DNA of 49,542 bases from a virus, in IMG/VR virus record IMGVR_UViG_3300025085_000039, positions 1 to 49,542 of that record. The stretch is one strand, 5' to 3'. Shown piece by piece: positions 13,561 through 48,019 of the stretch (the first letter of the stretch is position 1; the number at the start of each line of letters is the position of its first letter). The notes under the pieces were generated by a model. That model was not told the origin of the DNA, made no database searches, and was given only the letters and a program-made list of their open reading frames with translations. Both the position numbers and the translations under genes were made by a program.

Positions 13561-14046
13561 ATGGCAGTAAGATTAGATAACCTTAAATTGACCTCTATTG
13601 AGGAGAAGTCCCTCGAGAGTGGTTACTTGTATAAAGATGTTAAGTTCGATCTCGGAATGACACGATTTGGTAAATCTGCTCTCTATGCTGAACAGACTCT
13701 TAAAGATCTTGATGAATTGCAAGATGGTCAAGCTGTTATTAATAGTGTAAAGAATATACTCACAACTACACCAGGTCAGAAGCTTCTCAACCCTACACTT
13801 GGTCTCGACTTTAGAAGCTATCTATTTGAGCCGATTAATACTACTACATCATTCTTCTTGGCTCAGTTTATCTATAGCAACTTAGGAGTACAAGAGCCTC
13901 GCATTACATTAGAAGGTGTAACTATTGAGAGTCTACAAGATCAAAATCAATACAATATTGAGATAACATTTAGTATACCTAAACTTGATATCTATGATCT
14001 ATCTCTAAATGCTTCTTTGAATAAAGATGGCTACGTTTTGGTTTGA
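13561..14046 (+). CDS. 25: Baseplate wedge protein gp25 (GPW/gp25 family)
   Basis: 161 residues. The core GQKLLNPTLGLDFRSYLFEP, followed by a helix and the VQEPRITLEGVTIESL strand, is the GPW/gp25 signature found in contractile-tail baseplates, where gp25 joins the wedge and sheath. Length fits (T4 gp25 is about 132 aa; marine relatives are often longer at the N terminus). gp6 follows at 14077, the usual pairing. The upstream TAAATA motif marks it as late. Its presence is direct evidence that block B belongs to a myovirus. Confidence 0.85.
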   Translation: MAVRLDNLKLTSIEEKSLESGYLYKDVKFDLGMTRFGKSALYAEQTLKDLDELQDGQAVINSVKNILTTTPGQKLLNPTLGLDFRSYLFEPINTTTSFFLAQFIYSNLGVQEPRITLEGVTIESLQDQNQYNIEITFSIPKLDIYDLSLNASLNKDGYVLV

Positions 14047-14062
14047 TAACTAAGGCTTATAG

Positions 14063-14070
14063 ATTAAATA
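14063..14070 (+). promoter_or_regulatory. Late promoter motif ATTAAATA for gp6
   Basis: It lies 6 nt before ATG 14077 in the 30-nt gap after gp25. Confidence 0.65.
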
Positions 14071-14076
14071 TCTATA

Positions 14077-15932: not shown

Positions 15933-15940
15933 ATTAAATA
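15933..15940 (+). promoter_or_regulatory. Late promoter motif ATTAAATA
   Basis: CGATTAAATAAGTGTATG: the motif ends 5 nt before ATG 15946. The same 18-nt string precedes ATG 30004. Confidence 0.7.
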
Positions 15941-15945
15941 AGTGT

Positions 15946-31329: not shown

Positions 31330-31336
31330 TAATAAA

Positions 31337-34300
31337 ATGGCCAGAGACTTAAAAACCGTAGTTAACGAATCTGTATTTACAGCAATTAACGGATATGATG
31401 CATCGACTGATAAGCCGATGTTCAATAATTTGGGTAATGCAGCAACAATGACCAGAACAACTGATAACTGGATGCATGCTCTTGTTGGTTCTACAGGTAT
31501 TTCTCCTTTAAACAATAACGATGTTGGTGGTGTTGCTGGTACAAGAATGGGTGGTGCTCTTATTACACCAAGACACATGGTTTTTGCAAGGCACTATGTA
31601 TTACCTGTTAATAAGATTGTTTATTTTTACGATAGAAATAACGTTAGATACGATCGAGTAATTACAGCAAATGCTTATCACGGAATGGGCTCTGCTAACG
31701 GTGATTATTATGTAGCTGTTCTTGATAGTGATCTTCCTTCAGAGATTGAACCACTTAAAGTGTTTCCACCAGACTTCTACAAGTATCTTGATCCAAGTCA
31801 AATTACTCTACCTGCATACCTACCTGGACGCTTTTCTTTTACTGACGACTTCCCTATTATACATACTGACCAAGAAGAGAAGTCTCTTATTTCACGTGCA
31901 ACTTCTATTGATGTTGGTGAAGAGGGTATTGCTGGTTTTGATGCTTCTCCAAATAGTTACCAAACAGGTGATCTTGGTAAGATGATGTATGGTAATCCAA
32001 TTGATACTGACTTACAAGCTTGGAGAGAAGGTTTAATTGCCGGTGATTCAGGCACACCTCACTTCGCTCTCATTGATGACGAGCTTATTTTCCTTGGACC
32101 AACTTATACGACTAATAGAGTTGATAGTATTGTTAACCTCCGTACTCACAACGACATTAATAAGTTAATTGAGGATGCAGATACTGCTGCTGGCTTTAAT
32201 ACTGGTTATGAGCTTACTTCCTACGACATGACAGGATTTAAGCAGTACAATATTCCTGATAGAGAGTATACCTTTATTGGTAATGATATCAGTAACGGTA
32301 CATTGATTCAGTTCCGTGGTAGTGTAACAGACCATAACAGCTACCACTACTCAATTCCTTATGCTGCTACTGATGTTGTAAGAACAGATCCACGTGACGA
32401 TTCGCAAACCCTTTATAGTGTAACTGGCATATCTACAAGTAACCAGAAATGGGTAGGAGCTGTATATGCTTCTAATAAGCGCATTTATGCTGCTCCTCAC
32501 GCTGCATACGGTCCACTTATTGTTAATACAGAAGACCCTTCTAACGTTACTGTAGATTATATTAATGTTGGCTACGGTCTTCAAACAAGAGGTATTGCTC
32601 TTCAAGATAACGGTAACGGTGCTGGTGCTGCTTATATGACATCTTATAGTGGATCTGAGTCTACTAAGAAGTTCACATTCGATGCAAATGGTAATGAGTC
32701 AGCTGTTACTTCTCTCACTTATACAGTACCGACAGACCCATTCGAAACAGCTCGTGGAACTTCACTAGCTGCTGCTGATGAAGCTGTATTTCCTTTTATC
32801 TATCGTTCTTACTGGGGCGCTGTTAATGGTGGTAATGATAAGATCTATGGTATCCCATACGGTGCGAGTCAAGTTCAAGTTATTGATCTTAACGACGACT
32901 CTATTTCCTTTATTGGTACAGCTCTTACTGGTAATGCTGATTACGATACTACAACATCTGCTAATACTGATTACTTCTACTTGCGCTGTCCTCAGTGGAA
33001 CAAGTATAAGGGTGGTGTTCTTGCTTCTAATGGCTGCATTTACTCTCACGGTACTCACGCTCGTAGTGTTCTTAAGATTGATACATCAGATGATAGTGTA
33101 ACTGAGATTCCTTACCCATATACCATCTACAGTGCAATGACTGCTGGTTATACTGGTTCAGATGTTGACAGACACAATACATGGGGTAGACAGCCTGCTA
33201 GTATGTTCTCTGTTGAAGGTCCTGATGGTAAGATTTATAACACTCCATGGAACCTTCCTTATCAGATTGCTATTGATCCAGCAGATGATTCTATTTCCTT
33301 TAATCCACTTAGTGCTATTCTTGATGAGGATTCATCTGGTGCTGACTTGGCTTGGTATACAGATGGCTCACTCTTGAATCAGCAAGTCTTTATGGCTCCT
33401 GGTGAAGCAGATCGTGTTCTTGAGATTGGCTTTGATGGATATACTCCAGCTGCTTGGTCTACTGTTACACCATTTAGTCAAGCTTCATCTTCATCTTCAC
33501 CTTCCCCATCACCATCAACGAGCTCACAAAGCTCGTCTCCATCTCCATCAGTTACTCCAAGTAGCTCTGAAGTTCTTACTCCAACACCGACACAAACCGG
33601 TACCCCAACAGGTACCCCAACAGGTACTCCAACTGGTACTCCAACAGGAACACCAACTGTGACTCCTACCTCGAGTACGTCTATTGGAGTAACTCCTTCA
33701 CAGTCACCTTCACATACACCTACACCTACTGGTACAGGTACACCGACACCTACTCAGACCCAGACTCCATCTGTTACTCCTACTAATAACAATAATCGTT
33801 GTGTTATGCTTGAGTATGATGTTGAGGATGGTCCGGATCGTTTCATTGTAACTTACAAAGGTAGTGTTATTATTGATACAGGCTTTGTTGGTAATGCTGC
33901 TTATGTATATGGTGGCTATAAGAGACAAGTATTTATTGATGCGTTAATTAAAGAGGATATTGATTTTTCTGGTACCACTCTTGCTGATGATGGTTACCCT
34001 GTTGTTGATACAACTACAGAAGGAATGATAGAGTCTGTTGAATCACTCTTTAATGAGAAAGAAGCGCTTGTTACAATTCAATCTCCTGTTCATGATAAAC
34101 CAGGCTGGAGATATACTCTCAACTGTCCTATGGTATGTTTAGATCCTACACCGACTGGAACACCAACACCAACACAGACACCTACACAGACACAAACGTC
34201 AACACCAACTCCGACTGGTACTCCTAACCCTACCCCTACTGCGAGCTCTACGCCTTGTGGTACTCCTACTCCTACACAAACACCAACATCGAGTAGCACT

Positions 34301-36350: not shown

Positions 36351-36374
36351 ATTATTTATTATATTAGAGTTCCT
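36351..36374 (-). promoter_or_regulatory. AGGAACT/TATAAT element, variant copy
   Basis: Minus strand: AGGAACTCTAATATAAT followed by AAATAAT and ATG. It has the same AGGAACT-N4-TATAAT core as the other copies but a longer A/T spacer, which also contains TAAATA. Confidence 0.6.
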
Positions 36375-36375
36375 A

Positions 36376-36555
36376 TTAAGCGACACGCCTTACACTGATA
36401 ACTTTTGAGGATTTAGCATTCCAGTAATCAAACTTCTCCATAACTTGCTTTACTGTCATCTCTTCAGTTGGGTAGTAATCCATAGTAACTGTATCGTTAA
36501 TATCATTACCGGTTATCTCAACCTTTACCGTGTATCGTCCGTGTTTCATTGTCAT
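36376..36555 (-). CDS. Hypothetical 59-residue protein
   Basis: ATG 36555 to TAA 36376. The product begins MTMKHGRYTVKVEITGNDIN, continues with DYYPTEEMTVKQVMEKFDYW and ends SVRRVA. It looks like a small beta-beta-alpha protein. No family recognised. Support comes from the AGGAACT...TATAATTAGGT element directly before its ATG, the tight packing with both neighbours, and a codon pattern like theirs. Its shortness makes it easy to miss. Confidence 0.6.
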   Translation of the reverse strand: MTMKHGRYTVKVEITGNDINDTVTMDYYPTEEMTVKQVMEKFDYWNAKSSKVISVRRVA

Positions 36556-36577
36556 ACCTAATTATATCAGAGTTCCT
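36556..36577 (-). promoter_or_regulatory. AGGAACT/TATAAT element
   Basis: Minus strand: AGGAACTCTG then ATATAATTAGGT directly abutting ATG 36555. The TATAAT ends 5 nt before the ATG. Confidence 0.65.
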
Positions 36578-36578
36578 T

Positions 36579-36761
36579 TTAGAGTAGCTTCCTCAACCGT
36601 GCAGTTTTAAGTGCATCAAGCTTCTTAGTCAAGTGCACAATGTATGCATTAGACTCTTCATTAACGAGAGCATTTGCAATCTTAGTTGCAAGCTCAATCT
36701 CTTCAGCTTCTACGAAGCTCTTTATCTCTGTCTTTTTGGTATAGCCTTTATTGTTGCTCAT
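36579..36761 (-). CDS. Hypothetical 60-residue helical protein
   Basis: The product begins MSNNKGYTKKTEIKSFVEAE and continues as two amphipathic helices (ATKIANALVNEESNAYIVHL, then KKLDALKTARLRKLL). No motif. It could be a small regulatory or scaffolding protein. The ATG abuts a copy of the AGGAACT/TATAAT element, and its stop lies next to the following copy. Confidence 0.55.
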   Translation of the reverse strand: MSNNKGYTKKTEIKSFVEAEEIELATKIANALVNEESNAYIVHLTKKLDALKTARLRKLL

Positions 36762-36783
36762 ACCTAATTATATCGGAGTTCCT
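36762..36783 (-). promoter_or_regulatory. AGGAACT/TATAAT element
   Basis: Minus strand: AGGAACTCCG then ATATAATTAGGT abutting ATG 36761. It differs from the copy at 36556-36577 at a single base. Its first A is the last base of the upstream stop codon. Confidence 0.65.
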
Positions 36784-37157
36784 TATAAGGAATCCGTAAC
36801 CTCACCTGGATCAGTGAGGAGAACTGCACGGACAGGGCAGTCTAGCTTGATTTTATTCTTACATTTAGGGCATCTATGGGTATTATCACCATTTACAAAG
36901 ATTTCCTCTTCGAATACGTGATTATTGCATGGACAATCTACAGCCATACGTGACATATTGAGAACACCTTCAATACTCTCATCAAACTCAGCATAGAGCT
37001 TATCTTTATCTACCTGAAAACGTGTATTAATGATCCAAAACACAACGAACTGAATACCAGTAACAAGAGAGAAGCATTTCCAGAACTCTACCCATTGAGA
37101 GAGGCCATAAGCAATGAGTCCTGATACTGCAGCTGTTGTAATGAGTGATCTTAACAT
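36783..37157 (-). CDS. Membrane-anchored zinc-ribbon protein
   Basis: 124 residues. Two hydrophobic segments at about 3-20 (SLITTAAVSGLIAYGL) and 27-44 (KCFSLVTGIQFVVFWII) form a probable helical hairpin in the inner membrane. A soluble part follows with C75-P-C77..H80 and C96-P-K-C99, likely a zinc ribbon, possibly with C107. The combination of membrane hairpin and cytoplasmic zinc ribbon suggests docking of a host or phage protein at the membrane; the function is unknown. TATACT lies 9 nt upstream of the ATG. Confidence 0.6.
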   Translation of the reverse strand: MLRSLITTAAVSGLIAYGLSQWVEFWKCFSLVTGIQFVVFWIINTRFQVDKDKLYAEFDESIEGVLNMSRMAVDCPCNNHVFEEEIFVNGDNTHRCPKCKNKIKLDCPVRAVLLTDPGEVTDSL

Positions 37158-37197
37158 TATACCTATAGTATAAATGCTAAATAACTATAATCAACTA

Positions 37198-37524
37198 CTA
37201 AAGTGAAAGTTTGCCAAGGTCTTCATCAAGACCCAATACAAGATTGTTGATTTGGTCAATCTTATCTTGCATCGCCTTAACGTCTTCATCATCTACAGAA
37301 GCGTTATGACTAACATTATCTAGCATACGACGAATCTCCGTAAGACTGATGAATGTATCACCAATTTTAGATAAAATGTGTTCTAACTCAAATGGGAGAG
37401 TAGGTGGAGCCTTCTGTTCTTTTTCTTCATCCTTATATTTTTTCTGCTGGTTGGTCGTATCCATCAGCTGATTGATAGGATTATCATTAAACCTTGTAGA
37501 AATTCGATTATTTGCCCCATTCAT
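37198..37524 (-). CDS. Hypothetical late protein, coiled-coil C terminus
   Basis: 108 residues from ATG 37524. An in-frame start 36 nt upstream (37560) is rejected because a perfect T4 late motif TATAAATA lies between the two, 7 nt before 37524. The N terminus is polar (MNGANNRISTRFNDNPINQL), then Lys/Glu-rich. The C-terminal half is heptad-like (LEHILSKIGDTFISLTEIRR, KAMQDKIDQINNLVLGLDED). It is probably a small virion or assembly protein. Confidence 0.6.
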   Translation of the reverse strand: MNGANNRISTRFNDNPINQLMDTTNQQKKYKDEEKEQKAPPTLPFELEHILSKIGDTFISLTEIRRMLDNVSHNASVDDEDVKAMQDKIDQINNLVLGLDEDLGKLSL

Positions 37525-37531
37525 ATAGTAA

Positions 37532-37539
37532 TATTTATA
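37532..37539 (-). promoter_or_regulatory. Late promoter TATAAATA
   Basis: Minus strand: perfect T4 late consensus, 7 nt before ATG 37524. It is part of a divergent TATTTA-N10-TAAATA pair. Confidence 0.8.
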
Positions 37540-37545
37540 CCAGAG

Positions 37546-37553
37546 ACTAAATA
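37546..37553 (+). promoter_or_regulatory. Late promoter motif ACTAAATA
   Basis: It ends 5 nt before ATG 37559 and is divergent with TATAAATA at 37532-37539. Confidence 0.65.
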
Positions 37554-37558
37554 TTGAC

Positions 37559-38005
37559 ATGAAGAACTTCGGTAAAAGATTCGCACAGGTTATTAAGGAA
37601 AATACAGCTGAGCAAGAAGCGTTTGAAGACGCACTTGAAGCTGATACAGCTCCAGATGAGTTTGATGTAGATGTTGAAGCTGATCCAGAGGCTACTGCTG
37701 ATGTAGTTGAGGAAGATCCAGCTATTAAGGCTGCTGCAGCTCAAGGTGAGATCAATGCAAAGATGGTTGCTACACTTCAAGGCTGGATTGCTGATGGAGA
37801 TGCTTTCCTTGCTAAGCTTAATGATGCTTCTAACCCAGATTCAATTGCATACGCTCTTGGTAATGCTGAGCCAGATTCACTTTTCGACAAAATGGCTGCC
37901 GAACAACGTCGTGTTTCTAAAGTAGCTACTGACCTTGCTGCTCTTAACGAGACAATGCGTGGTTACCTTGCTCAGTCTGGTGATGCTTCTCTCCGAGGCG
38001 TTTAA
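37559..38005 (+). CDS. Small acidic late protein
   Basis: 148 residues. The basic start MKNFGKRFAQVIKENTAEQE is followed by a strongly acidic stretch (about 25-60) and a helical C-terminal half (AKMVATLQGWIADGDAFLAK, EQRRVSKVATDLAALNETMR). A lone + strand late gene among minus genes, with its own promoter and terminator, suggests a structural or prohead-core-type protein needed in quantity. This is inference; no family is recognised. Its stop overlaps the primase stop on the other strand by 3 nt. Confidence 0.6.
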   Translation: MKNFGKRFAQVIKENTAEQEAFEDALEADTAPDEFDVDVEADPEATADVVEEDPAIKAAAAQGEINAKMVATLQGWIADGDAFLAKLNDASNPDSIAYALGNAEPDSLFDKMAAEQRRVSKVATDLAALNETMRGYLAQSGDASLRGV

Positions 38006-39036
38006 AGATTATTGAAACGTTTTACCTCAGACATCTTAACAATACCTTCGAGTCCTTCGAAGGTATTTTTTTGTATCCATTCCCAGCTAATCTCATCTTT
38101 ATTAGCTGCAATAGCAAGGTCATTGAAGTCTTTATACTTCCTACCTAACGTTTCAGGCCATATAAACACGGTCTCTCCTTGGTTAAGTAAAGCCTCTGAC
38201 TTTATCATGGATGCTCTATCACCCCACTGAGAATCGAGTATCCACACCTTATCATACCATTTAAGAGTACCATTTAACTGCTCTTCTTGCCTCTTAGTAA
38301 ATGATCTTCCTCGTTCAGTAATACCAGCAACAGCTACTGAGTTACGTACAAAGAATGCATCAATAGGACCTTCGAAGATATACACCTTATCATGATCACT
38401 AGATACTTTATCAATGTTAAATAAGGTCTTCTCAGCTCCTACTTTACCAAGATACTTAGGCTTAGTTCTTAAGTCTGATGTCTTTACTGTTCTCGTCTGG
38501 TAGAACTCTATCTCCCCTCTTTCATTAACAAAAGGTATAACGATTCTATTCTTATGAACCATATCCTTAAGGGATACATAAAGGTTATCTGGTCTATTGA
38601 CAGCTGTATCTAACCTTCTAGACTTTATGATATGCTTACAAGCTCTAATAATGTGATTATCTTTATAAAACTCAAGCTGATGTTCATCACTGAAGTTAAT
38701 ACTATCTTCTGGCAAAGTAGATACTTGTACCTTCTCTCTAACCTCTTCTACCTTCCCAATATCTACAGATACATCATAATCTTTTACTTCGTTGATTATG
38801 TCTTGATTAGTACAACCACTTACTTCAATGATCCACTTCCACGGCTTACTTGACCAACCACAATTGTGGCAGTAGATGTTATCGTTTTCAGGTATGTAGT
38901 AACACCTCTTCTTCTTTAGTGATTCACGACACACAGGACAAGAGCACTGATACACATTATTGAACCTATTGTGTATAGGGCTCCTGCCGAATTCGTAGAA
39001 CTTAGCTACGACATACTCTTGCGGAAGTGAGATCAC
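38002..39036 (-). CDS. 61: DNA primase, gp61-like
   Basis: 344 residues. The N terminus has a zinc site (C33-P-V-C36 and C56-H-N-C59). A TOPRIM-like core follows: KVYIFEGPIDAFFV (catalytic Glu in FEGPID) and VWILDSQWGD (second acidic motif). It makes RNA primers for lagging-strand synthesis with the helicase at 44760. T4 gp61 is 342 aa. The GTG at 39036 is the start: TATAAT lies 5 nt upstream, directly after the exonuclease stop. Its 3' end contains a terminator for the opposite strand. Confidence 0.85.
   Translation of the reverse strand: MISLPQEYVVAKFYEFGRSPIHNRFNNVYQCSCPVCRESLKKKRCYYIPENDNIYCHNCGWSSKPWKWIIEVSGCTNQDIINEVKDYDVSVDIGKVEEVREKVQVSTLPEDSINFSDEHQLEFYKDNHIIRACKHIIKSRRLDTAVNRPDNLYVSLKDMVHKNRIVIPFVNERGEIEFYQTRTVKTSDLRTKPKYLGKVGAEKTLFNIDKVSSDHDKVYIFEGPIDAFFVRNSVAVAGITERGRSFTKRQEEQLNGTLKWYDKVWILDSQWGDRASMIKSEALLNQGETVFIWPETLGRKYKDFNDLAIAANKDEISWEWIQKNTFEGLEGIVKMSEVKRFNNL
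38041..38072 (+). terminator. Intrinsic terminator inside the primase gene
   Basis: AATACCTTCGA, loop GTCCT, TCGAAGGTATT then TTTTT: an 11-bp stem with a T7 tail overlapping the stem end. It terminates the + strand late gene 37559-38005, 36 nt after its stop, while coding for the primase C terminus on the minus strand. Confidence 0.85.
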
Positions 39037-39041
39037 GACTT

Positions 39042-39047
39042 ATTATA
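39042..39047 (-). promoter_or_regulatory. TATAAT box abutting primase start
   Basis: Minus strand TATAATAAGTC-GTG: TATAAT ends 5 nt before the GTG at 39036. Confidence 0.5.
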
Positions 39048-39048
39048 A

Positions 39049-39918
39049 CTAACCGAACATAGAAAGCAACTTGTTGCTCATAATGAAGAGTGTATGCCAT
39101 GCTTCCTTCTTCTTAAGAATATTCTCCATCTTATACTCTTCGCAAAGACAGACAAACTCTGACCAACGAGCTTCGATATCTACATCGAGCTGCTCTTGAT
39201 AGTAGTTAGCTTCTGATTCGTGAGACATAACCTCATTAAGGTCAAACACTTTCATGTTCTTCTCGAAGATAGCTTCTTGCTCTTCGTTAAGCTCAAGCTC
39301 ACCATCAAGCCACTTACGTACTTTAGCCTTACCAAAGCGAGGAATACCAGGAACGTTATCTGACTTATCACCTAAGAGGCACTTAGCACGAAGCCATTCG
39401 TTCTTAGTATAGTCAGTATCTTCTTTGAAGGTATCTAAAGTAAACTCACGCTTACGAATAGCATCGTAAAGTACAGTCTTGTCATCTACAAGCTGAAGGA
39501 AGTCACGATCTACTGATACAATAACCTTCTCACCTTCGAATGTCTTACAAATATAAGCTACAATATCATCTGCTTCTCTCTCACGAGGAAAGATAGAAGG
39601 AATACCTAAACAAGAAAGCATTTCCTTGATCTGCTCGTTCTGATGATGAGGAGTACTATCCTTACTACGAGTACCCTTATAACCATCTAACTGCTCCTTA
39701 CGAATATTAGGCTGATAGTCTTCCTTCTCATCCCATACACAAATGGTCTTAGTAGGCTTAAACTTATTAGCGTAAGAGTAAATAGCATTCAAGGTAAAGT
39801 ATACATGCATATTAGCAATCAACTCAGTATCTTCTATACCTTGTCTTTTACCTTGATTCTTGGCAGTCCACCATGTTCGGTGGATAAGGTTATTGCCATC
39901 AATTATTAGAGTTTTCAT
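39049..39918 (-). CDS. rnh: 5'-3' exonuclease / RNase H, T4 Rnh-like
   Basis: 289 residues from ATG 39918, so that the protein begins MKTLIIDGNNLIHRTWW, the usual FEN-family start; an in-frame ATG 36 nt upstream would add a non-conserved leader. Metal-binding acids are visible: D7, D63, E115/D117/D118 (REREADD), D137/D139 (SVDRDF) and D184/D187 (LGDKSDNVPG), the last leading into a helix-3-turn-helix (GIPRFGKAKV). It removes RNA primers on the lagging strand. T4 Rnh has 305 aa. A TATAAC box lies 4 nt before the start. Confidence 0.85.
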   Translation of the reverse strand: MKTLIIDGNNLIHRTWWTAKNQGKRQGIEDTELIANMHVYFTLNAIYSYANKFKPTKTICVWDEKEDYQPNIRKEQLDGYKGTRSKDSTPHHQNEQIKEMLSCLGIPSIFPREREADDIVAYICKTFEGEKVIVSVDRDFLQLVDDKTVLYDAIRKREFTLDTFKEDTDYTKNEWLRAKCLLGDKSDNVPGIPRFGKAKVRKWLDGELELNEEQEAIFEKNMKVFDLNEVMSHESEANYYQEQLDVDIEARWSEFVCLCEEYKMENILKKKEAWHTLFIMSNKLLSMFG

Positions 39919-40171
39919 TAGCGTTATATTGTGCAGAGCAGACCTTAAAGACATCCTTAGGAGTCTCCTCTACATGTTCAATTATATCAGAGTTCCTTCC
40001 GATAGTCCACTTATCTGTAGGAACTTTGACATTTTTCATGTCTGGTACTGATAAGCAACCAATCTCTTTATCAGTTACTTCACATACAATAAACATCTGA
40101 CCTACATAGTCACCATGATGTACTGCGTAACAATCTCTTCTTTTAGTGGAATTTTGATCCATTGTCTCCAT
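39899..40171 (-). CDS. Hypothetical protein, preceded by the window's clearest Shine-Dalgarno
   Basis: 90 residues (METMDQNSTKRRDCYAVHHG, then GQMFIVCEVTDKEIGCLSVP; small beta-rich domain). Minus strand AGGAGG lies 5 nt before ATG 40171, an exception in a region where such sites are missing. Its end overlaps the exonuclease start by 20 nt, and the coding sequence contains an exact AGGAACTCTG-ATATAATT string (39980-39997), possibly an internal promoter for the exonuclease/primase pair. Function unknown. Confidence 0.55.
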   Translation of the reverse strand: METMDQNSTKRRDCYAVHHGDYVGQMFIVCEVTDKEIGCLSVPDMKNVKVPTDKWTIGRNSDIIEHVEETPKDVFKVCSAQYNANENSNN

Positions 40172-40451
40172 ATGTACCTCCTAAATTACCTGCAACAAAT
40201 AATCTCATTGCTAAGGTATCTAATGCATCTAATTGCATATCGGAATTGGCACCTTTTATTAATATTGTTTTACCGTCAATATCATAACCGAAGATGTAGA
40301 ATGTATCTAGATACTCAGCTACGATACTCTTTAATTTCTCTCGTAGTTGTTTCTCGTTCTTAAAGCCTTTAAGATCTTCAGCATGCAAGTTTAGAGCGCT
40401 ATTGATTAGATCATCAATATCGTTATTTTGCTCCTCCGGCTTCTCGTCCAT
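40143..40451 (-). CDS. Hypothetical protein
   Basis: 102 residues (begins MDEKPEEQNNDIDDLINSAL; LREKLKSIVAEYLDTFYIFG; then DGKTILIKGANSDMQLDALD and a Gly-rich end). It has an acidic N terminus and an alpha/beta core. It overlaps the previous and next genes by 29 nt on each side, with TATAATAAGA directly before its ATG. Its location in the clamp-exonuclease cluster suggests a replication accessory role, but I do not recognise it. Confidence 0.5.
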   Translation of the reverse strand: MDEKPEEQNNDIDDLINSALNLHAEDLKGFKNEKQLREKLKSIVAEYLDTFYIFGYDIDGKTILIKGANSDMQLDALDTLAMRLFVAGNLGGTYGDNGSKFH

Positions 40452-40797
40452 TCTTATTATACTTATTCAAGAACTCTGAATCTTCAACTTGTAGTACCTG
40501 ATGATCAATTAATCTTTGTACTACAACATCAATAGAGCTCGTCTTAAGGACGTAACCTCGAGGAAATCTCTGGTTACCATCCTCAAAACTAAACAAGTAT
40601 TCATCTTTGAATGGTCTATTCTCAAAGCAAGTAATGTATACTGAAGCACCTCCTGGGTCAACAAGTACCGTCCACTTACGAGAATCGTGATCGCCGTACT
40701 TATCAAACATCCTAAAGGTCACGTACTTATGATCTTTAAGACGCTTGATGAAGTAACCAGCTGTCTTTAGTTTGTTCTTTTGGTTGTTAGATAGCAT
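40423..40797 (-). CDS. Hypothetical protein downstream of the sliding clamp
   Basis: 124 residues from ATG 40797, one base after the clamp stop (TAA-G-ATG); an earlier in-frame start at 40863 would lie deep inside the clamp gene and is rejected. The product (MLSNNQKNKLKTAGYFIKRL, FRMFDKYGDHDSRKWTVLVD, PGGASVYITCF) is a compact alpha/beta protein. T4 has the clamp loader gp44 here, but there is no Walker motif, so it is not a loader subunit. Confidence 0.55.
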   Translation of the reverse strand: MLSNNQKNKLKTAGYFIKRLKDHKYVTFRMFDKYGDHDSRKWTVLVDPGGASVYITCFENRPFKDEYLFSFEDGNQRFPRGYVLKTSSIDVVVQRLIDHQVLQVEDSEFLNKYNKNGREAGGAK

Positions 40798-40798
40798 C

Positions 40799-41551
40799 TT
40801 ACTGGGTAAGTGATGAAACAATATACTTAAGCTTAATCTCTTCTGCTTCTTGCTCAAATACAACTACACCGTACTCTTTATTAACCCTAACAGTAAACGA
40901 ACCACTAATATTATTAAGTAGACGAATATTATCGAAGTTAACTGGAATAGGATCAAGTTCTACCTTAACCAAGCCAATGCACATAGTAAAGTTATCAGTA
41001 TTATGACGAGCCCTATCAGTAAGCTCAGCCATAAGTCTAAATCCTTCACCACCTTTATTCTCTTCAGTATAAAAGTAAAGCTTATTAGTCTCAGAAGCAA
41101 ATACAGAACCCTTGAAGATCTGATTGAGAATATTACTATCAATGACAAAGCCCATATCGAACTCAAATGCATTAATCTTCTCAACATTAAGGCCTGGCTT
41201 ACTCAAGAAACCCTCGTCAAATAGATGGTACTTAAACTTAACACCATTGCCCTTATACTCTAAGTTATTTGAGTTAACCTTAAGGTCAATCTCATCATCA
41301 AAGCCTACTGTCTTGAGGACATTAGTTAACTTCTTTACATCTGGAATATTCAGAGTAGAAGAGAAGTCAGTACCAGCAGCATATTCTGCATGGAGGATAA
41401 GAGTATTGTCAGTAGAAGCAACAAGACTAGAAGTCTTATCACTATCTAACTGAACAATAGCACTCTCACTTATCTTTGATAAAGAGTCTAAAAAAGCTAC
41501 GAACTTTTCAGGCGACTTTAGACTTAGCTTTCTTTCTTGTTGGTTTGACAT
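40799..41551 (-). CDS. 45: DNA polymerase sliding clamp, gp45-like
   Basis: 250 residues (T4 gp45 has 228). It matches the gp45 two-domain pattern: KLSLKSPEKFVAFLDSLSKI at the start, then DNTLILHAEY, SSTLNIPDVKKLTNVLKTVG, DMGFVIDSNILNQIFKGSVF, and an acidic/hydrophobic end with SGSFTVRVNKEYGVVVFEQE. It forms the trimeric ring that tethers the polymerase and, in T4, activates late promoters together with gp33/gp55. Its 5' end overlaps the Pro/Ala-linker gene by 44 nt. The clamp loader genes are not in this window. Confidence 0.88.
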   Translation of the reverse strand: MSNQQERKLSLKSPEKFVAFLDSLSKISESAIVQLDSDKTSSLVASTDNTLILHAEYAAGTDFSSTLNIPDVKKLTNVLKTVGFDDEIDLKVNSNNLEYKGNGVKFKYHLFDEGFLSKPGLNVEKINAFEFDMGFVIDSNILNQIFKGSVFASETNKLYFYTEENKGGEGFRLMAELTDRARHNTDNFTMCIGLVKVELDPIPVNFDNIRLLNNISGSFTVRVNKEYGVVVFEQEAEEIKLKYIVSSLTQ

Positions 41552-42014
41552 TTGTACTCTCTAATTGTAGCTTAATATCTTTCAATAGCAAGTTGCTTTC
41601 TTTAACAGCAGCAAGCAACTGATCCATCTGGCTTGGCTCACTAAAGTCCAAACCAAGTTGCTCTTCTACAACTGGAGCAGGAGCTACTGGTGCAGGTGCT
41701 ACAGGAGCAGCAGCTTGAAGTTCTAACTGAGCTTGCTCAGGTGTAACAGGAGCAGGAGCTACAGGAGCTGGAGCAGCTTGAGGTTGTGGAGCAGGAGCTT
41801 GAGGTGCTGGAGCTGGCTGAGGTGGTTGTTGACTGGATGCAACAGTAGGTGTTGCCACCAACTGCTCAACCATATTCTTCATCTCATTAGACTTAGCTTG
41901 AAGCTGTGCTGATGCACCAACGATCATATCGTCTTGCTTCTTCATCTGCCCATAAGTCTGACCCATAAGCTGCATTACCGCAGCCTTGGCTTCGGGTGTC
42001 ATTGGATCACTCAT
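41508..42014 (-). CDS. Pro/Ala-linker protein with a QLGLDF motif
   Basis: 168 residues in three parts: an N-terminal helix (about 1-55, AKAAVMQLMGQTYGQMKKQD), a Pro/Ala/Gln linker (about 56-116), and a C-terminal helical part ending in a basic tail (KPTRKKAKSKVA). QLGLDF at 119-124 fits the bacterial clamp-binding consensus QxxLxF. Its place between gp32 and the clamp, both replication core genes, is suggestive. The function is not known. It starts 5 nt after the gp32 stop. Confidence 0.55.
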   Translation of the reverse strand: MSDPMTPEAKAAVMQLMGQTYGQMKKQDDMIVGASAQLQAKSNEMKNMVEQLVATPTVASSQQPPQPAPAPQAPAPQPQAAPAPVAPAPVTPEQAQLELQAAAPVAPAPVAPAPVVEEQLGLDFSEPSQMDQLLAAVKESNLLLKDIKLQLESTNVKPTRKKAKSKVA

Positions 42015-42019
42015 AACTC

Positions 42020-42874
42020 TTAGAGGTCGGCAAGAAGGTCATCGATGTCATCTTCAACAGAGGAAGTAGTCTCTGCTGGAGCCGGTGCTGGAGCTGGAGC
42101 TGCTTCTGCTGGAGCGGACCAAGGAGGTGTATCACCAGCGGCAGGAGTCTCAACAGTAGGCTCATCAGCCTTACAATGGAAGTGCTCATTAAGCATAGTA
42201 ACAAGCTCGTCATTACTCTTAACAGGGAAGGTCTCCTTGAGAGTGTGAGTTTGACTATAGATATCCTTCTGCTGATCTTCAGAAAGATTCAACTTACCAG
42301 CAGCAGTAAAGCGAGAGGAAACATAGGTAGGATAGTCGCCTTGCTGCTCACACTTAATCTTGAAGTTAACACCTTCTTCACCGAGGTCAAAGATCTTAGC
42401 ACCGAACTCAGCGGCGTCTTCACCTTCGATAGCTTCAGTAATGATCTTGTGAAGCTGCTTACCATAGCGAAGCATCTTGACTTTACCATTGTTATCAGGG
42501 TTAGTAGGATCGTCTACAACATAGACGTTAACAAGCCACTTCTCGGAACGACGGAGTTGAGAAGCTTTCTCTTTCTCAGCATCAGAACCCATACGGCTAA
42601 GCTTGAAGCGCTCCTCGTTAATAGGGCAACGCTCACCAAAGGTCTGAGGACTAAGAGCTTGGACATACTGACCGGTAGCAAAGCTATTCCAACCCATATT
42701 GTAGTAGTGGAAGAAGGTATCTGCTGGAGACTTACCATCTGGAAGCAAGCGAACGGTATAGGTATTACCTGGCTTGGTTTGCATGATTTCGGAGAACTTA
42801 CTCTTACCGGACTCATTGCTGGAGGCTAAAGCACCTTTGATGCTTTCGAACATACTCATATTAAATGCACTCAT
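42020..42874 (-). CDS. 32: Single-stranded DNA-binding protein, gp32-like
   Basis: 284 residues (T4: 301). The core matches gp32: FFHYYNMGWNSF, then ERCPINEERFKLSRMG, KWLVNVYVVDDPTNPDNNGK, LRYGKQLHKIITEA. The acidic C terminus DDIDDLLADL matches T4's DLDDLLNDL tail, which binds gp59, primase and polymerase. The zinc site is degraded: T4 has CPVC, here C83-P-I-N86, so the second Cys is missing. A Pro/Ala linker precedes the tail. It is coupled to gp59 by a 1-nt gap. Confidence 0.88.
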   Translation of the reverse strand: MSAFNMSMFESIKGALASSNESGKSKFSEIMQTKPGNTYTVRLLPDGKSPADTFFHYYNMGWNSFATGQYVQALSPQTFGERCPINEERFKLSRMGSDAEKEKASQLRRSEKWLVNVYVVDDPTNPDNNGKVKMLRYGKQLHKIITEAIEGEDAAEFGAKIFDLGEEGVNFKIKCEQQGDYPTYVSSRFTAAGKLNLSEDQQKDIYSQTHTLKETFPVKSNDELVTMLNEHFHCKADEPTVETPAAGDTPPWSAPAEAAPAPAPAPAETTSSVEDDIDDLLADL

Positions 42875-42875
42875 A

Positions 42876-43526
42876 TTACTTTTGTTTTTCTGTTATTATT
42901 TTAGTTACTTTGTCTTTTGTTTCTCTGGCCTTTGATTTAAGTATCTTAGAGCCAAGATATTTTGTGCGCGTAAGCGCGAAAAGGGATTTAAAGTCCTTGA
43001 CGATGAAGTCCAATACGTCTCGTTCGACGGTCTTAATGATGGGTTCAACTTCAAGGGCATGTAATGTATAAAAGTTTAGCCTATGTTCTTGTAAATGCAA
43101 CAGGCAAGTAGGCATATTGTTAGTAAAATGTTTTTGGTACTCTTCAAGTGTAAGAGAGTTCCTTATACAGAACTTGGCTACATACCTGAAGCCATCTTTC
43201 ATTACCTCAATATTGTCATCACTATCAGGATTTGAGACTTCCTTCTCTTTCATGTAGATGGAATAGCATTTAAGTGCCTTCCTACTATTAAAGAACTTAA
43301 GGTCAAACCATTCATCCTTATTATACACACTGAATGGAGCAGCAAACCAATCTCTATAGTTAATATGGTTATGCTTAACAAAGAAGGCAGATAGCTTCTT
43401 AAGAGCTACAAAGTCAGCATCTTTCAACTTACTAAAGTCTTTTCTGAAGCGAGTAGGCTTACCCTGAGCAGTTCGGGTAGCATACAGATAGCTATTGTAG
43501 ATATCTTTTTCTCTTTCAGTTACCAT
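42876..43526 (-). CDS. 59: gp59-like helicase loader
   Basis: 216 residues (T4 gp59: 217), highly basic and all-helical: EREKDIYNSYLYATRTAQGK, KLSAFFVKHNHINYRDWFAA, then FRYVAKFCIRNSLTLEEY and a Lys-rich end. It lies directly upstream of gp32 in the same transcript, as in T4 (59-32). gp59 loads the gp41 helicase onto gp32-coated DNA. The call rests on size, charge, helical pattern and synteny; sequence similarity is weak by eye. TATAAT lies 8 nt before the ATG. Confidence 0.65.
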   Translation of the reverse strand: MVTEREKDIYNSYLYATRTAQGKPTRFRKDFSKLKDADFVALKKLSAFFVKHNHINYRDWFAAPFSVYNKDEWFDLKFFNSRKALKCYSIYMKEKEVSNPDSDDNIEVMKDGFRYVAKFCIRNSLTLEEYQKHFTNNMPTCLLHLQEHRLNFYTLHALEVEPIIKTVERDVLDFIVKDFKSLFALTRTKYLGSKILKSKARETKDKVTKIITEKQK

Positions 43527-43558
43527 TCACAATGATTATAACTGATTCTAAAGTGAAA

Positions 43559-43855
43559 TCAACTCTTTAGTGCACCCTTATTCTGATTGAGGTACTTAGT
43601 AATGTACTTTGACTCTGCAATCTGTGGTTCAAACTCAATAAACAACTTCACCAACTCAAAGTCATTGTCTACAGTTAAGAGAGTCTTGAGCATATTACGA
43701 AGCTTCTCTTCTTTTAGTACCAATACGAAAATGTTTTGTAAGGAGAGTCTCTTACCTTTAATCTGACAACAAAATGTGCAAAAGCATAACATCAAATGCT
43801 CAAGCTCTCTTTTGGTAATATCGCCTGAAGGTAGGGGTACGTTGGGTTGTTTCAT
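43559..43855 (-). CDS. Hypothetical protein in the gp33 position
   Basis: 98 residues (begins MKQPNVPLPSGDITKRELEH; LMLCFCTFCCQIKGKRLSLQ; then two helices KLRNMLKTLLTVDNDFELVK). It is all-helical with a CFCTFCC cluster. In T4 the gene upstream of 59-32 is 33, the late-transcription coactivator, and the size is similar (112 aa). The gp33 C-terminal LDFLL clamp-binding end is not present here, so I do not assign it. Its ATG overlaps the DHH gene stop (TAATG). Confidence 0.5.
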   Translation of the reverse strand: MKQPNVPLPSGDITKRELEHLMLCFCTFCCQIKGKRLSLQNIFVLVLKEEKLRNMLKTLLTVDNDFELVKLFIEFEPQIAESKYITKYLNQNKGALKS

Positions 43856-44730
43856 TATTGAATTGGGGTAAGGGTTTTAGTCCAGTTAGCAAACGTTTCT
43901 GTTAGTTTACCTCCTGCTAAGTTATGTGCACCACCACCTTCGCATAGCTTCTCTGCCAACTTACCTAAGTTAAGTTGTACACCTCTCTGCTTTCTAAAGG
44001 ATACAACTTTAGCTTCAAGGTTAACCATAATGGCTACATCAGCATCGTACTTATCAAGCATGTAGTTTGCTACTTCATTAACTTGTTTAGTCACAAATGT
44101 AGATACAACCTTATAGTCTTTGATCATACCAGCAAATTTTGGATTCTCTAACTGCTCAACAAAGGCTTTAAAGTGAAGCTTAATAGCTCCTCGTTCATGT
44201 GCAGTAAAGTCTCTTAAACCATCCTTGAATGACTCAATAAACTTCTCTGCTTTAGGTTTGTTATAACCATAATAGATAGCATTTAGTTTGGCTGGTTCCA
44301 TCTCACGTGGAAAGTCAAATGACCAGCTATCATATTGATCAATTAGATCTACTAATGCTTCCTTTTCAGGTGTTACATTAATCTTTGACTTAAACTTATC
44401 AAAAATCAATTGTGTGCAAGAAGAGTAAGGTGTTACAACAGCTTTAGCTTTAGTATACTGCTCAACAAACTTGGCATGTGTTTCGTGATGATCAACTACT
44501 ACAACATTGCTGCGGTTAATTGCAATGGCTTGCTCTTCATTAAGGGATAAGTCACATACAAAGATCTTGTCGAAGTGATCAAGAGTGTTCCAACGATTTT
44601 TAAACTCATTAAGGATACGATACTCGGACGTTTCAACAATAATTACTTCATGACCAGCAAAGACCTCTTTTAAGAGTAAGGCTGAGCCTGCTCCATCAAG
44701 GTCTGAATCAGTAAAGATAAGTATGTGCAC
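43855..44730 (-). CDS. DHH-family phosphoesterase
   Basis: 291 residues with the complete DHH set: D8-S-D10-L-D12-G (motif I), VCD60 (II), VVD80-H81-H82 (III), DLIDQYDSW near 128-136 (IV), and C-terminal GGGAHNLAGG (DHHA1 substrate loop). The family includes RecJ and NrnA-type nano-RNases that cut short oligonucleotides to mononucleotides. Between helicase and loader genes it may recycle nucleotides or degrade primer fragments. I choose the GTG at 44730 because motif I starts at residue 5; a TATATAC run lies directly upstream. Confidence 0.8.
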   Translation of the reverse strand: MHILIFTDSDLDGAGSALLLKEVFAGHEVIIVETSEYRILNEFKNRWNTLDHFDKIFVCDLSLNEEQAIAINRSNVVVVDHHETHAKFVEQYTKAKAVVTPYSSCTQLIFDKFKSKINVTPEKEALVDLIDQYDSWSFDFPREMEPAKLNAIYYGYNKPKAEKFIESFKDGLRDFTAHERGAIKLHFKAFVEQLENPKFAGMIKDYKVVSTFVTKQVNEVANYMLDKYDADVAIMVNLEAKVVSFRKQRGVQLNLGKLAEKLCEGGGAHNLAGGKLTETFANWTKTLTPIQ

Positions 44731-44759
44731 GTATATACTTAATACCTCTCAGGGATAAA

Positions 44760-46067
44760 TCAACTCTGGGCAAATGCTGCAAGGGATGATAAAGTATTAT
44801 CATCTTCTAGATCATCTACATCATCAGCTTGCTCAATAGACAAAGTAGAGTAGTCAATTCTCATAGCTTGAGTCATACCTCGAGGACCATAACGGTTCTT
44901 CATCATACCCAATCTAATAATACCTAAGTCTCTATCTTCATCATTCTGGAAGATCGACATAATAACATCAGCAGTAGCAGCCAAGCCAATCGATTCAGAG
45001 ATAGTAGCTAGATCAGGATTATCTTGATCGAAGCCAGCTCGGTTCAACTGAGTAGCACTAATAATAGGGCAGTTAAACACGTAACTAATGGCTCTTACCT
45101 GTTCAGTAACATTCTTAATACGCTCATAGGAATTATTACCAATAGGGCTATGAATGAGGTTAAGGTAGTCAATAACAATCGCATCTAAGTGAATACCTTG
45201 ATCGGTAAACTTCTTAGCAAAAGCTTTAATAGTATTAGGAGTAATAGTCGAAGGAGGAAATTCTTTGATATAGACATTACCATCACCTTCAGTCATAGCA
45301 GCTCTCAATGAAGGTCCATTAACAGCCATCTCCTTCATAGGAATCTTAGATACATGAGTACAAATACGACGAGCATAAAGTAACTCGGACATCTCAAGAG
45401 TAATTAGCAGGACATTCTTACCTTGCTCTGCAATATTAGCAGCAACGTTACCTAAGAAGATAGACTTACCAATATTAGTCTCACCTGCGAAGACATATAG
45501 TGACTTACCATCTTTAAGAAAGCCACCATCAAGAGAGTCATCAAGCCATTCCCAGTTAGAAGGGATCTTATCTTCTACTGTAGTAAGATCTTCAATAATA
45601 GTATCAATGTTATCTTTAACACTAAGACCTAAGTCAGTAACAAGACTAATATTACAACTCTTCTCAAACTTATCTAGGATAACAGAAGTATCAACCTCAC
45701 CAGCTGAGATAGCCTCAGCAGATTCCATCATAGTACAGTATACAGCCTTCTCCTTAAGGAACTGCTCAGTATTCTGCAGTAACTCATCCTTATCAATACC
45801 CTTATCAATATCAGCAAAGCTACCTACTAACCTTCTAAAGGTCTCCTTGAGCTGATCAGTAACTAAGTACTGCTTAATCTCAGTCGTAGTAGGAAGTTTG
45901 TTACGAGTCTCATTGAACTCTTTGATGATAGTAAAGATGTCAGATATATCTTTACTCTTGAAGAACTCCGGCTGAACATTATCAGCAATGGTACTAAGAT
46001 AACCGCTATCAGTTAGCGCGTTATACATAAGTACGTTTTCGAAGTAATCTAAATCAAGCTTAGCCAT
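44760..46067 (-). CDS. 41: Replicative DNA helicase, gp41/DnaB-like
   Basis: 435 residues (T4: 475). The N-terminal helical domain spans about 1-150. The RecA-type core has Walker A G195-ETNIGKS202, a Walker B strand DAIVID (about 295-300) followed by YLNLIHSP, and the motif ISATQLNRAG near 335. It is the hexameric 5'-3' helicase that acts with the primase at 38002 and the loader at 42876. The C terminus is acidic (DDVDDLEDDN). It is first in the minus-strand replication run; TATACT lies 7 nt upstream of the ATG. Confidence 0.9.
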   Translation of the reverse strand: MAKLDLDYFENVLMYNALTDSGYLSTIADNVQPEFFKSKDISDIFTIIKEFNETRNKLPTTTEIKQYLVTDQLKETFRRLVGSFADIDKGIDKDELLQNTEQFLKEKAVYCTMMESAEAISAGEVDTSVILDKFEKSCNISLVTDLGLSVKDNIDTIIEDLTTVEDKIPSNWEWLDDSLDGGFLKDGKSLYVFAGETNIGKSIFLGNVAANIAEQGKNVLLITLEMSELLYARRICTHVSKIPMKEMAVNGPSLRAAMTEGDGNVYIKEFPPSTITPNTIKAFAKKFTDQGIHLDAIVIDYLNLIHSPIGNNSYERIKNVTEQVRAISYVFNCPIISATQLNRAGFDQDNPDLATISESIGLAATADVIMSIFQNDEDRDLGIIRLGMMKNRYGPRGMTQAMRIDYSTLSIEQADDVDDLEDDNTLSSLAAFAQS

Positions 46068-46102
46068 CGTAATCAGTATAATAGATTAGTTTTAATAATC
46101 AA

Positions 46103-46780
46103 CTAGATCTTTACAGTCTTACCAACGTACTTTTTGTACTTCTTAAGGAACCACTTCTGACCATTTGTCCAGTCTTCAGTAAATTCTCTAAGGCCAGGTG
46201 AAGCATGAGTGATGTATGCATCAATCACACCACATTTGAACCCCTTTAGTGAGGCATCAAGGGTATAAGCAAGGTCGTAGAAGTGGAAACCAGCAGGACA
46301 TGACTCATCAAATCGAATCTTCTTAAAGACCTTCCTCGAGATGGCCAAGAATACACCATCCATAATAAGAGCTTGGTGTGGGTAAGGACCAAATGCTGTC
46401 ATTGACTTCTTACCTTTGTTCAAATGAGCTACTGCACCATGTAGATTACCTCCTTGGAAGCCTCCACCCATAAGATGCCATAGAGCTGGTTCTTGAATCT
46501 TAATTTGTGAAGCTCCTGCTACACCTAAGACATCATATGTCTCAAAATGCTTCTTTAGCTTCTCATAATCAAAGTTCTCAAGTACAATATCATCATGACA
46601 TAGAACAATATGATCAATGTTCTCCTTAATGGCAAAGTCAATCGCCTTGTTGTATACAGATTGAAGGGAGTCAGTGTTGTGTTCTTTGAAGAAGACTTCA
46701 AGATCTCCTTTTGTGTGGTGTAGAAGGGTATCTTCACGCTTACCCTTTGTAGCAGCACATATAAATAGATTGTTGTTCAT
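46103..46780 (-). CDS. Family-2-type glycosyltransferase
   Basis: 225 residues. The GT-A fold pattern is MNNNLFICAATKGKRE, then IDHIVLCHDDIVLENFDYEK (HDD as the DxD-type nucleotide-sugar site), FGPYPHQALIMDGVFLAISR and FDESCPAGFHFYDLAYTLDA, like StrF-related glycosyltransferases. It presumably transfers a sugar to a phage or host surface target, or to modified DNA. Coupled by TAATG to the amidotransferase upstream, so the two enzymes may belong to one pathway. Confidence 0.75.
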   Translation of the reverse strand: MNNNLFICAATKGKREDTLLHHTKGDLEVFFKEHNTDSLQSVYNKAIDFAIKENIDHIVLCHDDIVLENFDYEKLKKHFETYDVLGVAGASQIKIQEPALWHLMGGGFQGGNLHGAVAHLNKGKKSMTAFGPYPHQALIMDGVFLAISRKVFKKIRFDESCPAGFHFYDLAYTLDASLKGFKCGVIDAYITHASPGLREFTEDWTNGQKWFLKKYKKYVGKTVKI

Positions 46781-47448
46781 TATAGGAATAGGAAAGGTGA
46801 TTCATGCTTAAACTCACCTACTTTATTAAAGCGAAGAGTCTTTTTATTAAGGCGTCTAATCTCACCTTCCTTTAGTTCTTTGTAATTCTTACCAGGTAAT
46901 GTAGAGTAGCAGCCTTTATCATTGTAGTGTAAGATGGATCCAACACGAGCGATGTATAGTTCATTGGTATCACAATCAACAATGGATACAGCAAATGAGC
47001 CTTGACACTCTTCTAGTGCTTTACGAATATAGGTAACTGGATTAGTTCCTTTTGTTCTATCGTCCTCCATAAACTTCTGAATCAAGTTCACGATTAAGGA
47101 ACTATCAACAGGATTTTCTAGGTATGGAAGAAATCTATTACGAATAGCAGCCTCATTAGTCAATACACCATTATGGAATACCATAAATGACATTGTATCG
47201 AATGGATGTGATGTTTCATAAGCCCAATCACGCATTGCTGAAGTTGGAGCTTGTACATGACCGCAGTTGTAGTTAGATTGTTTAGAGCCTTTAACATTAT
47301 CCCAATCAATCTCACCTTCTTTCTTCATGACAAATTGATCATCATAAGTAAGTTGGACGAAACTACTTGCAAACGTACCCCTACTCTGGTTAGCGGTATA
47401 TAACACCTCTAACATAGACTTATCGGGAGCTCCAAAGATAGCACACAT
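46780..47448 (-). CDS. Stand-alone class II glutamine amidotransferase
   Basis: 222 residues. It has the N-terminal nucleophile Cys2 (MCAIFGA), CGHVQAPTSA (equivalent to GHTRWAT), FHNGVLTNEAAIRNR, DSSLIVNLIQKF and GSFAVSIVD. These are the N-terminal glutaminase motifs of GFAT and asparagine synthetase; no synthetase domain is attached. It releases ammonia from glutamine for another enzyme. Co-translation with a glycosyltransferase suggests amino-sugar chemistry, but no acceptor enzyme is visible here. Confidence 0.8.
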   Translation of the reverse strand: MCAIFGAPDKSMLEVLYTANQSRGTFASSFVQLTYDDQFVMKKEGEIDWDNVKGSKQSNYNCGHVQAPTSAMRDWAYETSHPFDTMSFMVFHNGVLTNEAAIRNRFLPYLENPVDSSLIVNLIQKFMEDDRTKGTNPVTYIRKALEECQGSFAVSIVDCDTNELYIARVGSILHYNDKGCYSTLPGKNYKELKEGEIRRLNKKTLRFNKVGEFKHESPFLFL

Positions 47449-47469
47449 ACAATATAATTTAATCTATTT

Positions 47470-47997
47470 CTAGAGCTTTGCAAGCTTAATGTTTTGTTCC
47501 TTACGATACTTAGCGGTGAGTTCCTTACTCTCCTCTTCACGACCATAATAGAGACGAAACTCTTTAGGAATGCGCCAGAAGAAGTCCATAGCACCAGTCT
47601 CTTCATGGAAGGCGAAGGTATAGTGAGGGTACATGATACCATCAACTTCGATCCACTTCTTACGCTTCTTTTTAGTCTTCTCAATACCAACCTTAGCAAG
47701 AGTATTCTTACCCAAGCCTTTTACCTTGAATAGATCATCACTACTGCGGAAGGGGCGCATGCCAACAATATTTTTAGCAGTATTCTTACCTACGCCAGGT
47801 AAAGCACGTAACTCCTTATCGTTCATCTTATTGAAGTCTCTAAAGGATAGCTTCAAATCACCAGTTTCTTCAGCTTTCTCAACTACTTTCTTAGTAGTCT
47901 TCTTAGAAGTCTTCTTAGAAGTCTTCTTAACTACCTTCCTCGCAGTCTTCTTAACTACCTTTTTAGGAGTCTTTTTTGCAGGTTGTTTCTTTGCCAT
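47470..47997 (-). CDS. Helix-hairpin-helix protein with lysine-rich, histone-like N terminus
   Basis: 175 residues. The first 45 are a Lys/Thr/Val repeat (KKVVKKTARKVVKKTSKK). At about 58-110 there are two helix-hairpin-helix motifs (LRALPGVGKNTAKNIVGM and LFKVKGLGKNTLAKVGI), as in ComEA/RuvA-type DNA binding. The rest has WIEVDGIMYPHYTFAF and FRLYYGREEESKEL. It probably binds DNA without sequence preference. Its ATG abuts an AGGAACT/TATAAT element. The tail resembles that of the zinc ribbon protein at 12692. Confidence 0.7.
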   Translation of the reverse strand: MAKKQPAKKTPKKVVKKTARKVVKKTSKKTSKKTTKKVVEKAEETGDLKLSFRDFNKMNDKELRALPGVGKNTAKNIVGMRPFRSSDDLFKVKGLGKNTLAKVGIEKTKKKRKKWIEVDGIMYPHYTFAFHEETGAMDFFWRIPKEFRLYYGREEESKELTAKYRKEQNIKLAKL

Positions 47998-48019
47998 ACC
48001 TTATTATAGGATAGTTCCT
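47998..48019 (-). promoter_or_regulatory. AGGAACT/TATAAT element
   Basis: Minus strand: AGGAACTATCC then TATAATAAGGT abutting ATG 47997. Same length (22 nt) as the copies near 36.6-36.8 kb, 11 kb away. Confidence 0.65.

Follow-up and report, generated by a model that had tools for sequence, protein, structure and literature searches.

What kind of signal is the AGGAACT-N4-TATAAT sequence that recurs immediately before minus-strand start codons in a viral DNA of 49,542 nucleotides (IMG/VR record IMGVR_UViG_3300025085_000039; the whole stretch is called the window here), and which factor reads it? An initial annotation, made from the letters of the window, described three 22-nt copies and one variant directly before minus-strand ATGs, two of them (36556-36577 and 36762-36783) differing by one base, and a core copy inside a gene at 39980-39997. 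All of these coordinates check, the one-base difference is confirmed and the intragenic copy is present. We propose that the element defines a class of promoters in a lineage of uncultured T4-like phages, with the consensus wAAGGAACTctgaTATAAT-N5-7-ATG, and we judge this explanation, including the mechanism set out below, to be probable.

Its gene content marks the window (49.5 kb) as part of the genome of an uncultured T4-like phage. It carries T4-type core genes (gp32, PF08804; a DnaB-like helicase; primase; baseplate wedge proteins) as well as an RNase H/exonuclease gene, and the lineage also has hits to gp55. At the DNA level, the window has no match among the phages of the annotated collection, and its gp32 is ~30% identical to the nearest relatives in that collection; close relatives are present in IMG/VR. 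Of the related contigs used here, the 197-kb G009 has many proteins in common with the others at a median identity of ~41-63%, and G015 and G025 fall outside the group that G009 and the other contigs form.

The element is real and is not a product of chance. The exact pattern AGGAACTNNNNTATAAT matches the window 5 times, always on the minus strand, where 0.02 matches would be expected; not one of 100 dinucleotide shuffles of the window gave as many, and the reversed pattern has 0 matches there. Scanning IMG/VR for the pattern with a spacer of 4 returned at least 120 stretches, many of them multi-copy, whereas a control scan with a 5-nt spacer returned 55 stretches, every one single-copy. Copies within a record, up to 19, lie nearly always on one strand, and the reversed pattern has 0 matches in 30 related records. 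Across 11 related T4-like contigs (723 kb), AGGAACT and TATAAT are 4 nt apart in 123 cases, with 0-2 cases for each other distance; an extended set of 1.4 Mb gives 146 cases at spacer 4 and at most 3 at any other. The resulting logo reads wAAGGAACTctgaTATAATaarrt, with no conserved positions further upstream of the box, and the first ATG follows TATAAT after 5, 6 or 7 nt in 21, 48 and 6.5% of sites (76% together; mode 6). When all hexamers before gene starts were counted, without presupposing the element, GGAACT was the most enriched (11-fold, peak at -22), and TAAATA (-11), TATAAT (-12) and AGTTGA (-37) were enriched as well. The initial annotation had suggested a search of related phages for further copies, and many were found there at gene starts. 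No copies occur in the annotated T4-like phages HTVC008M, Mosig, S-CAM1, S-B68, ACP17, two AG-345 marine viruses and RM378. T4 has a single copy inside vs.1, which looks like chance and was set aside, and our search of the literature for the AGGAACT-N4-TATAAT motif found nothing relevant.

The spacing of the element ties it to a -10 hexamer. Among 203 starts of the form TATAAT-N5-7-ATG, 137 have the box (at most one mismatch) at exactly spacer 4, and of 98 hexamers adjoining AGGAACT, 91 are TATAAT. The box replaces the -35 hexamer, because a -35-like TTGN accompanies 9 of the 137 starts with a box as against 25 of the 66 without one; in the window, a -35-like TTGCAA (first base 48031) sits 17 nt upstream of the TATAAT of the 47998-48019 copy. 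The TG of an extended -10 (TGn) is only partially present (T 57%, G 50%). Promoters of extracytoplasmic-function (ECF) sigma factors have a GGAACTT -35 with a 16-17 bp spacer, and sigma-54 promoters have GG/GC at -24/-12. Both types were considered and rejected, as the spacer is fixed at 4, the hexamer is TATAAT and no ECF-type -10 is conserved 16-17 nt downstream of the box.

The intragenic copy lies ~62 nt upstream of an RNase H/FEN-like gene whose product begins MKTLIIDGNN (start at ~39918). Of all the copies, this one tells the most. All 32 loci with the RNase H-like gene have a copy here, inside the preceding gene; its distance upstream of the RNase H-like start is mostly 62 nt and ranges from 56 to 69 nt. 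The site codons GGA, AGG, AAC, GAT and ATA are synonymously invariant across 36 non-identical aligned genes (AGG 35/35, AAC 36/36, GAT 32/32, ATA 36/36); most other conserved residues in the same alignment use several codons. Beside the site there is either ATG-TAG or no ATG, and hence no productive start codon. This codon pattern indicates that selection at the intragenic site acts on the DNA, and since it does so where no productive start adjoins, a purely translational role for the element is very unlikely.

The same evidence weighs on two of the rival explanations. AGGAACT could be a translational or mRNA element, such as a displaced Shine-Dalgarno (SD) sequence, an enhancer or a processing site, or the mixed transcription/translation signal that the initial annotation offered as an alternative; AGGA does resemble the SD core, and the element stands just before start codons. 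We nevertheless consider this highly improbable. The distance of the box to TATAAT is invariant while that to ATG varies, the box is coupled to loss of the -35, and the RNase H copy, with its frozen synonymous sites, stands 56-69 nt from the gene without a productive ATG. With AGGA ~19 nt from the start, at a distance fixed to TATAAT and not to ATG, the box does not qualify as an SD sequence, in line with the initial annotation, which had found AGGAACT too far from ATG for that role; the phages are moreover SD-poor. On the same points, the mixed signal is not supported. A chance similarity or functionless dispersed repeat might be argued from the window taken alone, which has five copies only, but this explanation is already refuted, and the probability we leave to it is negligible, given the number expected, the fixed spacing, the coupling to start codons and the conservation over divergent relatives. 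We therefore return to the promoter: the element is best read as a DNA-level promoter and not as a ribosome-binding site.

Sequence patterns before gene starts suggest three promoter classes in these phages: AGGAACT-N4-TATAAT, a class of sigma-70 type, TTGA-N16/17-TATAAT, and a late-type class, TTAAATA. Their members in the window, with the genes that concern us here, are collected in Table 1. The gene that starts at the ATG of the variant copy is a conserved small gene, and its relatives from 14 sources have the same element.

Table 1. Predicted promoters and associated genes. Positions refer to the window unless a contig is named.
Feature	Position	Strand	Details
Promoter AGGAACT-ccga-TATAAT-taggt	36762..36783	-	box 36777-36783, -10 36767-36772; ATG 36761 of 60-aa open reading frame (ORF) 36579-36761
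Promoter AGGAACT-ctga-TATAAT-taggt	36556..36577	-	box 36571-36577, -10 36561-36566; ATG 36555 of 59-aa ORF 36376-36555
Variant promoter AGGAACT-ctaa-TATAAT-aaataat	36351..36374	-	box 36368-36374, -10 36358-36363; ATG 36350, 7 nt spacing
Promoter AGGAACT-atcc-TATAAT-aaggt	47998..48019	-	box 48013-48019, -10 48003-48008; ATG 47997
175-aa helix-hairpin-helix protein gene	47470..47997	-	behind 48019 copy; element also at orthologues in 4 further loci
Intragenic copy AGGAACTctgaTATAAT	39981..39997	-	box 39991-39997, -10 39981-39986; within 90-aa ORF 39899-40171
RNase H/5'-3' exonuclease-like gene	39049..39918	-	downstream of internal promoter; phrog_107 exonuclease, E 9e-38
Sigma-70 type, early-like class, TTGATT-N16-TATAAT-N8-ATG	43532..43562	-	gene 42876-43526
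Sigma-70 type TTGATT-N16-TATACT-N7-ATG	46068..46102	-	before DnaB-like helicase gene 44760-46067
Sigma-70 type TTGATT-N16-TATACT-N9-ATG	37158..37194	-	gene 36783-37157
Late type TTAAATA-N5-ATG	15934..15945	+	before structural gene 15946
Further late-type TTAAATA promoters	14064, 21505, 29992	+	abutting structural-gene starts; N4/6 to ATG
Phage sigma-70 loci	G004 77823-78725 (+), G005 9940-11088 (-), G009 30743-31906 (-)		L228, L231, L204; L386-L391 also

Elsewhere in the window, a 1569-aa protein (31337-36046, plus strand) with long Ser/Thr/Pro-rich repeats (SPSPSPS, TPTGTPTGT) is probably a virion-surface or fibre-like protein, and a 250-aa protein in the sliding-clamp position (40799-41551, minus strand), which has no PHROG or Pfam match, is possibly a very divergent clamp.

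Transcription from sigma-70 promoters starts ~7 nt after the -10. TATAAT is followed by ATG after 5-7 nt, which would make the A of this start codon the expected +1. The TTGA class shares the same mode from -10 to ATG (N6), and the late TTAAATA class has a mode of N5, which again would place the A at +1 for a gp55-type -10. SD-like sequences precede 5.8% of operon-internal starts, compared with 3.9% in shuffles. The -10-to-ATG spacing in all three classes and this near-absence of SD sequences point to leaderless mRNAs. The suggestion of the initial annotation, a -10 with an extra upstream element that is read by a phage or host factor and yields leaderless products, is supported by the many copies found before genes of relatives, an outcome that escapes the refutation set by the initial annotation, with leaderlessness deduced from spacing.

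The genes behind the element suggest when it would be used. The 291 non-redundant downstream ORFs have a median length of 86 aa and include a B-family-like DNA polymerase (11 sources), gp32 (8 sources), a helicase-like protein (5 sources), one RecA-like and one QueE-like protein, and numerous small genes of unknown function; identities beyond gp32 are our own reading of the sequences. T4 middle genes comprise replication, recombination and nucleotide genes (PMC2988021), and by this analogy the class looks like the lineage's functional counterpart of the T4 middle (prereplicative) promoters. Several AGGAACT promoters also stand in arrays of genes for HREDGPAxEW-repeat proteins (L250 / L353 and the 5'-region of G007).

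Whether a host factor could read the element depends on the host. The G001 contig encodes a PII (GlnB/GlnK) nitrogen regulator (67270-67647, plus strand) that is 87% identical to that of an Akkermansiaceae metagenome-assembled genome (MAG). Identity is at most 74% with other sampled members of that MAG's phylum and at most 64% with the sample taken from the phylum of a Flavobacteriales MAG. A Flavobacteriaceae host, indicated by MAG binning alone (L250), was set aside in view of these PII identities. A chromosomal contig of the same Akkermansiaceae MAG (54% GC) has a 28-nt exact copy of window positions 36759-36786. In another genome of the family (L364:1-5054; G248:C36), low-GC phage DNA of the lineage, with the element, joins 54%-GC chromosome at the 3' end of tRNA-SeC, a junction that may mean that a T4-like phage integrated there, or that the contig is chimaeric. 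As a separate observation, G009 encodes a phage tmRNA (L203:15777-16193, minus strand; tag AANKVVDFVLPQAEPQFALAA; Rfam RF00023, 132.5 bits). The gene directly downstream of the tmRNA has a homologue in L364, which comes after the tRNA-SeC 3' end there. In the Akkermansiaceae MAG, an SD signal is lacking (4.1% vs 4.3%) and TANNNT peaks at exactly -12 (11 vs 2.7); Akkermansia is listed as SD-scarce (PMC10783764). For marine Far-T4 viruses, a group to which the window lineage may or may not belong, Bacteroidetes have instead been pointed to as hosts (PMC7198788). The hosts are probably Akkermansiaceae-like Verrucomicrobiota, with binning errors and chimaeric contigs possible.

Two further explanations concern the reader itself. 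A host factor or host sigma could recognize the element, which would then be an early promoter built in imitation of a host one; this would suit the perfect host-type TATAAT at the -10 and the many downstream small ORFs in a variable region, typical of early genes. The candidate host family speaks against this: across 145 of its genomes, the element has 3 matches and the reversed control 4, and one of the 3 falls in phage-derived DNA. At this background level, the element does not represent a promoter type of the host; the separate TTGA-N16/17-TATAAT class, moreover, already supplies the ordinary sigma-70 type. We accordingly regard a host reader as decidedly unlikely, and the absence of the element above background from host-family genomes makes a phage-encoded reader most likely. 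One candidate is a full-length RpoD-like sigma-70 (regions 1.2, 2, 3 and 4 above Pfam cut-offs), which G004, G005, G009 and further contigs encode besides gp55 (phrog_234). Such a sigma factor could read the whole AGGAACT-N4-TATAAT, activate its own gene and take over from the host sigma: the element lies immediately before its ATG in 7 of 8 IMG/VR loci, and each sigma locus is rich in the element, with 4-22 same-strand copies and none with spacer 3 or 5. Its region 4.2 helix, however, is canonical (TLEEVG..F.VTRERIRQIEAK). From known sigma-70 structure, the canonical helix reads TTGACA at -35, which does not fit a box at -20. In G014 and G007, furthermore, large element clusters extend over a syntenic stretch with no detectable sigma gene, although both are fragments. 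For these two reasons we do not claim that the sigma-70 reads AGGAACT, and we see this as a possible but unlikely solution. Models of MotA (PF09114) and AsiA (PF09010) have no hit at E<=1 in any of 10 records, the 197-kb G009 included; the records are fragments, and distant homologues could escape. Small conserved early proteins were also considered as readers: for a C4 zinc-ribbon-like protein the model was poor, and for a 58-aa protein it was confident but had no PDB match.

Several observations weigh against the proposed promoter class and its reader. The box drifts between lineages at the same spacing, being RGGAACA in G016 (1-14177) and occurring as ACGAACT beside AGGAACT in G002 (1862-25768); this lineage-specific drift also offers a handle for co-variation searches for the reader factor. 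Some relatives have few exact copies, and at some sites a start codon is absent within 20 nt. Coming from related contigs, the sites are only partly independent; genes were called mechanically, the 'middle' timing is read from gene content only, and no AGGAACT-binding factor was identified among the candidates examined.

The mechanism we favor would run as follows. TATAAT would serve as a sigma-70 type -10, bound by RNA polymerase with a sigma-70 factor, and AGGAACT (~-23 to -17, one helical turn above the -10) would act as a second recognition element, held by the rigid 4-bp spacer in place of a -35. A lineage-specific, most likely phage-encoded factor would contact AGGAACT and activate the promoter, and transcription would begin with the A of the ATG, give or take about one base, yielding leaderless mRNAs. 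By gene content, this would constitute a prereplicative counterpart that serves DNA polymerase, gp32, helicase, recombinase, RNase H, the phage sigma-70 and many small genes. The sequences themselves show a conserved, phage-specific class with an unfamiliar build and with selection on the DNA, whereas its activity, start site, timing and phage-encoded reader are deduced.

To our knowledge, MotA/AsiA is the one case in which it is understood how host RNA polymerase comes to be redirected to middle promoters of the T4 type. The present lineage, which has no recognizable version of either protein, appears to achieve this through a different box in a different place, and would offer a clean comparison for how the -35 is bypassed. 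A broader reading, to which we give slightly less than an even chance, is that the element reflects an undescribed redirection of RNA polymerase, in which a non-MotA/AsiA phage factor on a 7-bp box bypasses the -35, an additional full-length sigma-70 of host origin is switched on by this promoter, and the whole of the prereplicative and late programmes are leaderless, matched to SD-poor Verrucomicrobiota. The three classes would also provide a transcription map for uncultured T4-like phages and a promoter-based marker for finding their contigs, as well as a natural setting in which translation may by default be leaderless.

Among known systems, the element appears functionally closest to the T4 middle promoters, in which a phage element likewise stands in place of the -35 beside a stringent, near-perfect TATAAT, before replication and small prereplicative genes (PMC2988021). 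It departs from them in its box (AGGAACT instead of (a/t)3TGCTTtA), in its position (centred at ~-20, a rigid 4 bp before the -10, where the T4 box is centred at -30, with 12+/-1 bp between), in the lack of matches to the MotA/AsiA Pfam models and in a start codon at the predicted +1. Extended -10 (TGn) sigma-70 promoters are similarly -35-independent, with specificity just above the -10, but here a 7-bp box lies 4 bp further upstream and TGn is partial. T4-type late promoters (gp55 sigma, TATAAATA) have their equivalent in the same phages, which have gp55 and a TTAAATA class abutting the ATG of structural genes; this is a separate class without AGGAACT and with another -10. As in promoters of bacterial leaderless genes (TANNNT ~10 nt before ATG), the -10 ends 5-7 nt before the start and SD sequences are absent, whereas the extra invariant upstream box, the use by a phage and the two other start-abutting classes alongside are particular to the present case. 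In the cyanophage Ma-LMM01, also T4-like, sequence and expression together predict three groups of promoters, but all three are SigA-like (PMC5780444), whereas the classes predicted here have three distinct architectures.

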